DNA of 64,000 nt from Mucilaginibacter lappiensis (GTDB lineage Bacteria; Bacteroidota; Bacteroidia; Sphingobacteriales; Sphingobacteriaceae), in assembly GCF_900155965.1 (NCBI RefSeq), contig NZ_FTMG01000014.1:62001-126000 (forward strand), written 5' to 3'. Both the position numbers and the translations under genes were made by a program. The notes below the pieces were generated by a model. The model had not been told where the DNA came from and ran no database searches. It saw nothing but the letters and a program-made list of their open reading frames with translations. This document shows positions 23,714 to 55,160 of this stretch, one piece after another; positions within the stretch are counted from its first letter, which is position 1; each line of letters begins with the position of its first letter.

Positions 23714-23759
23714 AACATTGATTTAGAAAACTAAACCAAAACTTTTATTATAATTGCTT

Positions 23760-24710
23760 ATGCATAACCCAGCTGACACCGCTTCTTCCGGACTTTCGGA
23801 CTTCCCCGCTTCCGGACTCCTTCCACCCTATTTGAAAAAAGGCGATAAGATAGCGATCACCTGCCCAGCCAAGAAATTGCCCCACCCTATGACAGATGCC
23901 GTAGCTCTGTTACAATCATGGGGATTAGAAGTGGTTTTAGGCGATACCGTAACCGCTTCATACCACCAGTTTGCCGGCGACGACGACCTGCGCGCCCATG
24001 ACTTACAACGTTTTATTGACGATGACAACATCAAGGCCATTATAGCAGCACGCGGCGGCTATGGTACTATCCGGATGATTGACAAGGTTGATTTTGGCCG
24101 TTTTGCTCAAAACCCCAAGTGGTTGATCGGGTTTAGCGATATTACCGTGTTGCATACTCATCTGTTTGCCAATTACAGGGCCCAAACCATACACGGACAA
24201 ATGCCGGTTAATATTCCCGATGCTTCCAAACATTCATTGGATACATTGCGAATGGCCCTGTTTGGTGAAGCTTTAAACTATAACTATCATGCCCACGGCT
24301 TAAATCGCAGCGGCGAAGGCTTAGGCATCTTGGTAGGCGGTAATTTATCTTTGCTGATAACGGTATCCGGCTCTGTATCCGACATCGACTATAGCGGTAA
24401 AATATTATTTATAGAGGATGTTGGTGAATATCTTTACTCGGTTGACAGGATGTTGCGCAACCTGAAACGGGCTGGCAAGCTTGCCCAGCTCGCGGGCCTC
24501 ATCGTAGGTGGTTTTACCGATATGAAGGATAATGACATCCCTTTTGGGCAAACCGTACCCGAAATTATCATGGACATTGTACAGGAGTACGATTACCCCG
24601 TATGTTTTGATTTCCCGGCCGGGCATATCCCCGATAATTGCAGTTTAATATTTGGTAAAGAAGCTCGGTTATCTGTCCGGAATCAAGAAGTAAGCTTGAA
24701 GTTTGTTTGA
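23760..24710 (+). CDS. LD-carboxypeptidase, peptidase family S66
   Basis: A 316-residue cytoplasmic enzyme that removes the terminal D-Ala from tetrapeptides in peptidoglycan recycling. Motifs: LKKGDKIAITCPA at the N-terminus, RGGYGTIRMID, the nucleophile serine in GFSDITVLH near residue 121, FIEDVGEYLYSVDRML with the catalytic Glu, and the catalytic His in FDFPAGH near residue 287. Upstream frame could begin at TTG 23754, but ATG 23760 is preferred. The first 24 residues (SSGLSDFPASGLLP) look like a non-native extension made from repeat DNA. It stands alone. Confidence 0.92.
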   Translation: MHNPADTASSGLSDFPASGLLPPYLKKGDKIAITCPAKKLPHPMTDAVALLQSWGLEVVLGDTVTASYHQFAGDDDLRAHDLQRFIDDDNIKAIIAARGGYGTIRMIDKVDFGRFAQNPKWLIGFSDITVLHTHLFANYRAQTIHGQMPVNIPDASKHSLDTLRMALFGEALNYNYHAHGLNRSGEGLGILVGGNLSLLITVSGSVSDIDYSGKILFIEDVGEYLYSVDRMLRNLKRAGKLAQLAGLIVGGFTDMKDNDIPFGQTVPEIIMDIVQEYDYPVCFDFPAGHIPDNCSLIFGKEARLSVRNQEVSLKFV

Positions 24711-48360: not shown

Positions 48361-48490
48361 ATATGCAGATAAAACCCGATATGCAGATGTGCAAATTTCA
48401 GATGTGCAGATGAAAAATCTGTTAACGTTGATTCAAGCATCATCTGAAATTTGCACATTTGCATATCTGCACATCTGAAATCTGCACATC
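48361..48490. repeat. Inverted repeat built of CAGATGTGC words upstream of recQ
   Basis: Arms at 48379-48405 and 48441-48467 match in 26 of 27 bases (GATATGCAGATGTGC and its complement). Each arm is itself a chain of short direct repeats. Both neighbouring genes have frames that run into it, which is why the start codons were chosen inside. Confidence 0.8.
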
Positions 48491-48498
48491 TAAAGAAT

Positions 48499-50659: not shown

Positions 50660-50779
50660 TTGGTATCAAGTAGGGAGTATCAAGTATCAAGACAAAAAAA
50701 TGCATAATTTTAAGGCGTTTTAATAAGTCTCAACATTTAAGAAAAGTCTTGATACTTGATACTCGCTACTTGATACTAA
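50660..50779. repeat. Inverted repeat of GTATCAAGTATCAAGAC words between recQ and murF
   Basis: GGTATCAAGTA...GTATCAAGAC at 50663-50693 and its complement at 50746-50776 agree in 30 of 31 bases. The arms contain tandem GTATCAAG words, the same design as the repeats at 48361 and 54961 but with another word. Confidence 0.8.
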
Positions 50780-50782
50780 AAT

Positions 50783-52144
50783 ATGATGACCACTACCGAA
50801 CAACTTTACCAGCTATACCTGCAGCATTCTGTGATCAGTACCGATACCCGGAAAATTGGCAGCGGTAGTTTATTCTTTGCCCTGAAAGGCGATAAATTTG
50901 ATGCCAACACCTTTGCTAAGCAAGCAATAGAGGCCGGCGCGGCTTATGCTATTATAGATAATCCGGAGTATCAGTTAGGTGAACGGTATTTATTGGTTGA
51001 CGATGTATTAACCACCTTGCAAGATTTGGCTCGTCATCATCGCAGGCAATTACAAATACCTGTTGTTGGGTTAACCGGCACCAATGGTAAAACCACTACC
51101 AAAGAACTCATCAACGCGGTACTATCCCAGCATTTTAAAACCCAGGCCACACAGGGCAACCTGAACAACCATATCGGTGTACCACTTACTATATTAACTA
51201 TTGATGCCACGCATGAGGCAGCAGTAATTGAAATGGGCGCCAATCACCAGAAAGAAATCGAACTGCTTTGCAGCATCGCGCAGCCATCGCACGGAATGAT
51301 CACTAATGTGGGTAAGGCACACCTGGAAGGTTTTGGTGGCGTTGAAGGTGTTAAAAAGGGAAAAGGGGAATTGTATGATTTCTTAGCCCCCCAGCCCCCT
51401 AAAGGGGGAGCTTTTGAAAAGCAAGATCGCATTGCTTTTATCAACAGCGACGATGCTGTGTTAATGGAAATGGCTGATGCCAGGCATTTACACCATGTTG
51501 TTTATTATGGCACACAAGACATTGATAACCTGATCAGCGGCGAGATCATCGAGAATGCTCCTTTGCTTACTATTCAATGGACCAACAACACAACCGGCCA
51601 AACATATACAGTTAAAACCCAACTCACCGGGGCCTATAATCTGAACAATATTTTAGCGGCTATCAGCATTGGTACTTATTTTAAGTTGAGTGCCAAAGAA
51701 ATAAACGCCGGTATTGAGGGTTATCAACCCAAAAACAACCGCTCGCAAATTGTACAAACGGCCACCAATACGCTCATTTGCGATTACTATAACGCCAACC
51801 CCAGCAGTATGATGGTAGCTATTGAAAACATTGGCAAGATAGATGCTAAGCGTAAAGTGCTTATTCTGGGCGATATGTTTGAGCTGGGTGATGAATCGCC
51901 GGCCGAACACCTTATTGTTATTCAGAAAGCGTTGGATACCCCCGTTGATGAACGGATATTTATTGGGAAGGATTTTCCTGCAGCGGCTAAGTCCATGAAC
52001 CATCAGCCATCTGCCATCGACCATTTCTATCTTACCGCAGAAGATGCCATTGCCGGGCTGAAAAAAAATCCTATAAAAAACTCCACCATCCTGATCAAGG
52101 GTTCACGAGGGATGGCTTTGGAAAGATTGGTGGAGTTGTTTTGA
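50783..52144 (+). CDS. murF: UDP-N-acetylmuramoyl-tripeptide--D-alanyl-D-alanine ligase
   Basis: A 453-residue enzyme adding D-Ala-D-Ala to the peptidoglycan precursor. ISTDTRKIGSGSLFFALKGD and the ATP loop GLTGTNGKTTTKEL (about 93-106) are diagnostic, as are NNHIGVPLTIL, GKAHLEGFGGVEGVKKGKGELYDFL and YNANPSSMMVAI. Around residues 201-211 the chain is interrupted by APQPPKGGAFEK, coded by a CCCCCT/AGGGGG palindromic repeat that stays in frame. The gene follows recQ with an inverted repeat between. Start at ATG 50783 or 50786 cannot be separated. Confidence 0.95.
   Translation: MMTTTEQLYQLYLQHSVISTDTRKIGSGSLFFALKGDKFDANTFAKQAIEAGAAYAIIDNPEYQLGERYLLVDDVLTTLQDLARHHRRQLQIPVVGLTGTNGKTTTKELINAVLSQHFKTQATQGNLNNHIGVPLTILTIDATHEAAVIEMGANHQKEIELLCSIAQPSHGMITNVGKAHLEGFGGVEGVKKGKGELYDFLAPQPPKGGAFEKQDRIAFINSDDAVLMEMADARHLHHVVYYGTQDIDNLISGEIIENAPLLTIQWTNNTTGQTYTVKTQLTGAYNLNNILAAISIGTYFKLSAKEINAGIEGYQPKNNRSQIVQTATNTLICDYYNANPSSMMVAIENIGKIDAKRKVLILGDMFELGDESPAEHLIVIQKALDTPVDERIFIGKDFPAAAKSMNHQPSAIDHFYLTAEDAIAGLKKNPIKNSTILIKGSRGMALERLVELF
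51383..51415. repeat. Palindromic repeat inserted in frame inside murF
   Basis: TTAGCCCCCCAGCCCCCTAA then AGGGGGAGCTTTT, a sequence that looks like an intergenic repeat and adds about nine residues (PQPPKGGAF) to the enzyme. The reading frame stays open. Confidence 0.65.
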
Positions 52145-52202
52145 AGTCCGAAAAGTCTTAAGACTATTTCGGACTCAGGAGTTAAGACCCCAGACTTGGG
52201 GC

Positions 52203-54958: not shown

Positions 54959-54960
54959 AT

Positions 54961-55160
54961 TAAGTCAAAAGTAAAAATTCAAAATTCAAAAAGATCCTTC
55001 CTTAAATGTATTTTGATTTTTTGATGCCTTGTTGCACTTGTTCGGAATACTTTTTGAATATCATGCTATGAGCCTTTTTATTTTTCTGAAGCGTTGATTC
55101 TTTAAGAAGTTCAGGAACGTTTCGGGATTTTGAATTTTGAATTTTAACTTTTGAATTAAA
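54961..55160. repeat. Inverted repeat of AATTCAAAATTC words in a divergent gap
   Basis: Arms at 54964-54991 and 55128-55155 match in about 25 of 28 bases (AAAATTCAAAATTCAAAA). The design is the same as the 48361 and 50660 repeats. The promoters of both flanking genes must lie within or between the arms. Confidence 0.75.

Follow-up and report, generated by a model that had tools for sequence, protein, structure and literature searches.

The window, by which we mean the whole stretch of 64,000 nucleotides analysed here from Mucilaginibacter lappiensis (39 contigs, 6.79 Mb in total), carries an open reading frame (ORF) for MurF between two genes that, on a reading of their sequences, resemble a recQ-like helicase and a short-chain dehydrogenase. 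The identity of MurF follows from its match to positions 1-418 of 418 in TIGR01143 (384 bits against a cut-off of 288.6), and its closest named relatives by murF belong to Mucilaginibacter. With the predicted model (pLDDT 87), each of the top 10 Foldseek matches is a MurF entry, although one of them, 2am1, is labelled merely ‘sp protein ligand 1’. An earlier note on this DNA had called murF an essential gene; the gene name stands, and essentiality is better regarded as plausible, since a MurF-alanine racemase fusion with a P-loop gives the source genome another Mur ligase domain, and a close MurF is missing from 9 of 149 genus genomes (8 of which are at least 99% complete), where a homologue of about 30% identity is found instead. 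In the two of these nine that were read (L249 and L040, from G073 and G034), the homologue is about 530 amino acids long, carries Mur ligase domains behind a long hydrophobic N-terminus and is the best match. To judge from these sequences, it is possible that a membrane-anchored Mur ligase has replaced MurF in genomes of this type.

Table 1. Features of the window, numbered from its first nucleotide.
Feature	Position	Strand	Description
murF, host gene of the insert	50783..52144	+	ORF of 453 aa; TIGR01143 over full length; best structural matches are solved MurFs
Segment TTAGCCCCCCAGCCCCCTAAAGGGGGAGCTTTT	51383-51415		in frame within the murF ORF
In-frame insert, loop 1	51386..51415	+	codons 202-211, APQPPKGGAF; 10 residues beyond 50 of 50 outgroup rows
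C-type repeat GCCCCCCAGCCCCCTAAAGGGGGAGCT	51386..51412	+	41.4 bits by matrix of 20 other genome copies; shuffle maximum 12.7
Hairpin core CCCCCTAAAGGGGG	51395..51408	.	arms CCCCCT/AGGGGG pairing around AA
Loop 2 of the source murF	51990..52022	+	reads MNHQPSAID; assigned by resemblance only to the CCATGGACC tandem family, as a decayed copy
Hairpin AGTCCGAAAAGTCTT/AAGACTATTTCGGACT	52145-52175		S-like units, immediately 3' of the murF stop codon
Inverted repeat, recQ-murF gap	50660-50779		34 bp, arms 94% complementary, 52 bases between; 7-base tandem unit TATCAAG
Inverted repeats of the same architecture	48378-48491, 54960-55159		other units
T/F family arrays	50663-50691, 50748-50777, 55127-55157		
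S-type 8-base array CTTCCGGA	23785-23818		in frame in ORF 23754-24710, N-terminal region of LD-carboxypeptidase

Several features listed in Table 1 surround murF. The hairpin that follows its stop codon may be a terminator of the gene. The inverted repeat in the gap between recQ and murF gave nothing above threshold when compared with Rfam, the sub-threshold hits being plant miRNA models only.

Within murF, the palindromic segment described in the earlier note is present and leaves the frame open. Loop 1, which we measure from D.L to F, has 21 residues in the source MurF, whereas every one of the 50 outgroup rows has 11; the addition claimed in that note is thus real, and its size is ten residues rather than about nine. 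Its assignment to a surface loop is a fair reading of the predicted model, in which residues 207-210 fall below a pLDDT of 50 between a helix (195-201) and a strand (217-221); in an alignment, the E. coli enzyme 1gg4 has a short turn at this position. The insert is common to the nearest species and is therefore not new in the source strain.

The DNA of the insert is a copy of a repeat that we term C-type (GCCCCCYARCCCCCTRAAGGGGGARYT), which occurs singly or as inverted pairs. The window alone proves nothing in this respect, since it contains one site of the hairpin motif (a second row is the other strand) and 6 of 100 shuffles gave at least two rows. Across the source genome, the motif CCCCCTNAAGGGGG is found at 21 distinct sites (22 rows, one self-palindromic site being listed twice) versus none for the reversed motif. 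The consensus of 20 of these copies, with murF left out, is about AGCCCCCTAGCCCCCTGAAGGGGGAATT, and a matrix built from the same 20 copies was used to score the murF copy and 2680 codon shuffles of 134 murF genes (Table 1). The unit measures about 27 bp, and the members of a pair are spaced 33-111 bases from start to start, giving an inverted pair of roughly 65-145 bp. The majority of sites lie outside long ORFs, and hence the search between genes that the earlier note proposed does recover the same DNA. Besides murF, the ORFs of clear identity that hold a copy are those for RadA, where two arms are read as APLPPEGG...PPSGGRAA, and for the N-terminal region of a GHMP kinase resembling homoserine kinase. 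A search of 60 genomes found the motif in 35, comprising 32 of the 37 genus members (with the source counted among them) and 3 of the 23 others; within the class it is present in 26 of 295 genomes, and of these 26 the 5 genus members have the highest counts (22-46 rows). Mucilaginibacter genomes hold several such short repeat families, mostly tandem units of 7 or 8 bases that often form inverted pairs.

Loop 1 proved to be variable when the gene was compared across the genus. The 149 genus genomes yielded 134 readable loops from 133 of them, two of these loops coming from a single genome; of the 16 genomes left over, 9 have a distant homologue only and 7 are incomplete or gave partial or distant hits only. 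The 50 outgroup rows come from Pedobacter and others. The loop is longer than 11 residues in 75 of the 134 genus rows versus none of the 50 outgroup rows, and stays at 11 residues in 57 genus rows. A C-type match above the maximum of the 2680 shuffles was obtained for 19 of 134 murF genes. It lies in loop 2 in L022 and in loop 1 in the remaining 18, all of which share one strand and frame, and the DNA is identical at synonymous positions among C-bearing murF genes of several species. An 8-base tandem repeat unrelated to C, which we call S-type (AAGTCSGRAAGTCSG, at most one mismatch), is present in 20 of the 134 genes, loop 1 being its site in 17 and loop 2 in 3; it matched none of the 2680 shuffles. 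Among 60 relatives, 25 have the S motif, all of them Mucilaginibacter, and it often takes the form of near inverted pairs.

These comparisons bear on the central proposal of the earlier note, that a repeat gave rise to a protein insertion. Relatives either lack the residues, as do all 50 outgroup rows, or have them encoded by the same repeat DNA, partly decayed, rather than by unrelated DNA, and together with the genome copies the loops of the relatives support this interpretation. The word ‘expansion’ is wrong for the MurF copy, which is a dispersed element and not a growing array. What goes beyond that proposal is that loop 1 is a recurrent site for several repeat families. Because the loops themselves served to define the families that we designate M, K, E, G7 and N8, the contrast that is free of circularity is limited to C, S and T.

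The distribution of the families over species is patchy. On a tree of the 134 MurF sequences from which the loop 1 columns were excluded, the states C, S and neither require at least 27 changes with strict labels and 31 when decayed copies are included; in this count gains and losses are indistinguishable, yet the outgroup has the short state. With C and S rows only, 12 changes are needed, of which 10 are forced by starred branches. The same pattern is visible among close relatives, where sister species whose murF genes are 88-93% identical hold different repeats while the flanks keep their normal identity. The 20-codon flanks are 97 and 93% identical between L008 (S) and L150 (C) for a whole-gene value of 92.5%, 97 and 97% between L003 (C) and L149 (S) for 93.1%, and 90 and 92% between L002 (C) and L143 (S) for 88.4%. 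Lower values beside the loop were also seen, at 88 and 80% for 83.7% between L004 and L155 and at 75 and 80% for 82.7% between L149 and L147, and short gene conversion is thus possible. In 6 of 7 rows examined, the row most similar beside the loop is also the most similar over the whole gene, or misses that place by no more than a tie or a single rank.

A second loop of MurF, between IGKDF and FYLTAEDA, behaves similarly. Loop 2 exceeds 16 residues in 103 of 132 genus rows; among the 49 outgroup rows with data it has 15-19 residues, and exactly 16 in 41 of them. Its DNA includes CCATGGACC arrays (translated as MDHGPWTMD), AAGTCAAAAGTC, TTCAAAATTC, S-type copies and one C-type copy; other palindromes are found in L200 and L229. 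The motif CCATGGACCATGGAC occurs in 15 of 60 relatives, all Mucilaginibacter, and in G023 and G005 some of the hits are, by their coordinates, the murF loop itself. A third, larger element of about 100 bases, reading PLLELSPTN...TPELVGDxxNKG, was seen in similar copies in L031, which has it in both loops of MurF, and in L229, which has it in loop 2; L074 gives its complete reading.

The RadA loop, defined as the stretch after MRAERL, is a further site of this kind. A RadA match was obtained in 142 of 149 genus genomes, and 96 loci were read, of which 89 are distinct (69 genus, 20 outgroup). With at most one mismatch, C-type is present in 33 of the 69 genus rows versus 1 of the 20 outgroup rows (L401), and the best matches at this threshold all fall within the loop. 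Genus rows also contain AAATCCGAAATCCGA in 8 cases and four further families 10 times together; S and M, two of the eight patterns tried, had no match in RadA. Both arms of the pair are frequently present and translated through. In L350 the pair is read in other frames (PPNPLKG...LPLQGAGG), and the peptide of the RadA insert is therefore not fixed. L359, with a pair, and L371, with a single arm, differ by 16 codons in frame and are 93-94% identical outside the loop, and single arms such as the one in murF may likewise derive from pairs. On the RadA tree, C versus the remaining genus rows requires 17 changes, 10 of them forced, with labels that follow a protein pattern (31 of 89 rows) distinct from the DNA match count. 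Loop sizes overlap between genus (22-55) and outgroup (19-40).

Other coding DNA provides the background for these counts. C-type is absent from 576 kb of other ORFs sampled, namely 151.2 kb of murF neighbours, 89.8 kb of radA neighbours and 335.2 kb of an even sample of genome G026. Of the host genes, murF has 11 copies over 84.0 kb and radA has 38 arms over 57.9 kb; shared ancestry inflates both counts, and so the figures express a contrast and not a rate. Of 81 murF loci given for this comparison, 62 were used and 7 were unrecognised, the rest being duplicates; the corresponding numbers for radA are 56, 40 and 10. Twenty stretches of the source genome, picked partly for known C sites, were kept out of the rates. 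With all families considered, the even 400 kb sample of G026 has 10 arrays between ORFs versus one within an ORF, at its N-terminus. This lone array is an S-type repeat that forms the N-terminus (FRTSGLSDFPTGS) of a PAD_porph family protein (L253:15878-16951). The window has an array of comparable placement in the LD-carboxypeptidase gene (Table 1), a gene of cell wall metabolism, where it reads MHNPADTASSGLSDFPASG ahead of PPYLKKGDKIA and lies outside the Pfam domain.

What we observe directly is the identity of the repeat, its open frame, its absence from the outgroup, its recurrence, and the presence of different families at one site between unchanged flanks. The explanation that we consider probable is that dispersed hairpin repeats entered tolerant loops in frame, where they persist, decay and are replaced. 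A C-type copy would have landed in frame in a flexible MurF loop in an ancestor of the species group of the source. Hairpin repeats would spread, and nearly all copies borne by genes would be lost, except in the few loops that tolerate extra residues, where stop-free copies in frame would survive. Both MurF loops and one RadA loop would be such sites, and the copies they hold would decay by point mutation and deletion before being overtaken by other families. Neither an empty/filled pair at base resolution nor a target duplication was found in the material compared, and so we infer insertion as such. Where a MITE would show a target site duplication and the terminal inverted repeats of a parent transposon, the comparison gave inverted pairs and no parent transposon. 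Selection following insertion would complete the process, with residues that are presumably tolerated rather than useful, and any mechanism of copying is conjectural in the same sense.

An alternative history, which we regard as unlikely, is that a few ancient insertions were shuffled into the patchy pattern by short gene-conversion tracts that carry loop alleles between species. The origin of the majority of loop 1 inserts from a few families and the constant strand and frame of the murF C copies fit this history, as does the sequence TTTTGAAAMGC found 3' of the repeat in the distant rows L001, L170, L172 and L181. However, TTTTGA also follows intergenic C copies and is thus possibly part of the element. 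The three sister pairs L008/L150, L003/L149 and L002/L143 have flanks that match whole-gene identity, six of seven rows keep the same or nearly the same nearest row beside the loop, and the further families in loop 2 and RadA, the latter also read in other frames (L350), likewise argue against old alleles. Gene conversion over wide tracts, which are what the comparison of flanks covers, was not seen in the sister rows.

Tolerance alone does not explain why nearly all genic copies are in so few loops. Because the repeats are nearly absent elsewhere in coding DNA, the loops are possibly preferred targets in addition to being tolerant. A bolder version, to which we attach rather little credence, holds that unrelated hairpin families swap as cassettes in both MurF loops and the RadA loop, with flanks untouched, by a form of copying that prefers these places and that might operate, for example, through template switching at hairpins during replication. 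If this were true, the genus would have a standing source of core-protein loop diversity in its intergenic DNA.

It is considerably less probable that the inserts are selected, whether because the hairpin works in mRNA or DNA or because the residues tune the enzyme, so that the loops are favoured beyond being tolerated. Three loops in two housekeeping genes are indeed occupied far above other coding DNA, but decayed copies are numerous (L002, L006, L146, L321, L340, L349), RadA arms are losing their pairing (L341), the encoded peptides differ with no evident pattern, and the length of 11 residues persists in 57 of 134 genus MurF loops. The decayed copies and the many insert-free species argue against a conserved function. 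Finally, we give practically no weight to a proline- and glycine-rich loop that resembles the repeat by chance, for although the motif is non-significant within the window alone, this is already refuted by the genome count of 21 versus 0, by the score of 41.4 bits, where no shuffle exceeds 12.7, and by the identity at synonymous positions in several species; the paired arms in RadA likewise speak against it.

The preferred reading, of dispersed repeats that settle in tolerant loops, has its nearest precedent in the Rickettsia palindromic elements, which the primary papers of Ogata reportedly place in frame within genes. According to the available portion of a review, there are several such palindromic families, both intergenic and in frame in unrelated genes with protein function remaining compatible; the review considers Rickettsia unusually rich in selfish repeats that lie in frame, and the same in other prokaryotes is deemed conceivable (PMC10969869). 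The C-type palindrome likewise lies in frame in unrelated genes (MurF, RadA and the N-terminal region of the GHMP kinase). In contrast to the Rickettsia elements of about 150 bp, its unit is about 27 bp and its pair about 65-145 bp, several unrelated families, mostly 7- to 8-base tandem, alternate at one loop in sister species, and the hosts belong to another phylum and are free-living. By analogy, then, the system works like the Rickettsia palindromic elements yet is not placed in that family, a distinction drawn from their description.

Other known repeats are similar in some respects. C-type resembles REP/REPIN sequences, with their palindromic unit of 20-40 bp, in being a short hairpin with tens of dispersed copies that are often inverted doublets. 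Unlike them, it occurs inside genes, its consensus (20 copies, by eye) has no GTAG or CGTC tag, and no linked RAYT (Y1) transposase was found among the 7 Y1_Tnp loci of the source genome, none of which has C or S within about 1.5 kb (2 mismatches); we therefore rejected a RAYT as driver in this genome. Several of these Y1 (REP-type) transposase genes, L163-L169, have inverted flanks of their own, such as CTCGTGGTATAGCATGG beside L167/L168, which are unlike C and S.

The cyanobacterial STRR, short tandemly repeated repetitive heptamers, are dispersed intergenic arrays of 7-base units, and we know of no recurrent in-frame use of these or of the TAACTGA repeats in the same protein loops. The latter are dispersed intergenic 7-base arrays of Beggiatoaceae, in the part of their description available to us (PMC4679880). 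The S, K, M, F and T families of Mucilaginibacter are similarly dispersed intergenic arrays, although they differ from both in sequence and lineage; T and F are 7-base tandem arrays of the STRR type, whereas C-type forms no tandem array. Inverted repeats embedded in coding sequence are also described in mitochondrial genes of Nematomorpha, but the accessible text concerns organelle genes with perfect repeats of up to 284 bp, and a dispersed intergenic family is not evident in it (PMC6649704). Titles and abstract openings, from a partial coverage of the literature, contained no description of in-frame repeats in Mucilaginibacter.

Taken as probable, our explanation means that non-coding repeats keep rewriting loops of core proteins across Mucilaginibacter. 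A genus from another phylum than Rickettsia would thus do likewise, with dozens of changes in a few named loops across about 130 species. Furthermore, the genus would offer a natural experiment in which one loop of closely related enzymes carries unrelated peptides of non-coding origin, so that one could measure how well new protein segments are tolerated, what they cost and how they are later used, and it would also serve to work out how such short repeats move where no transposase is known.
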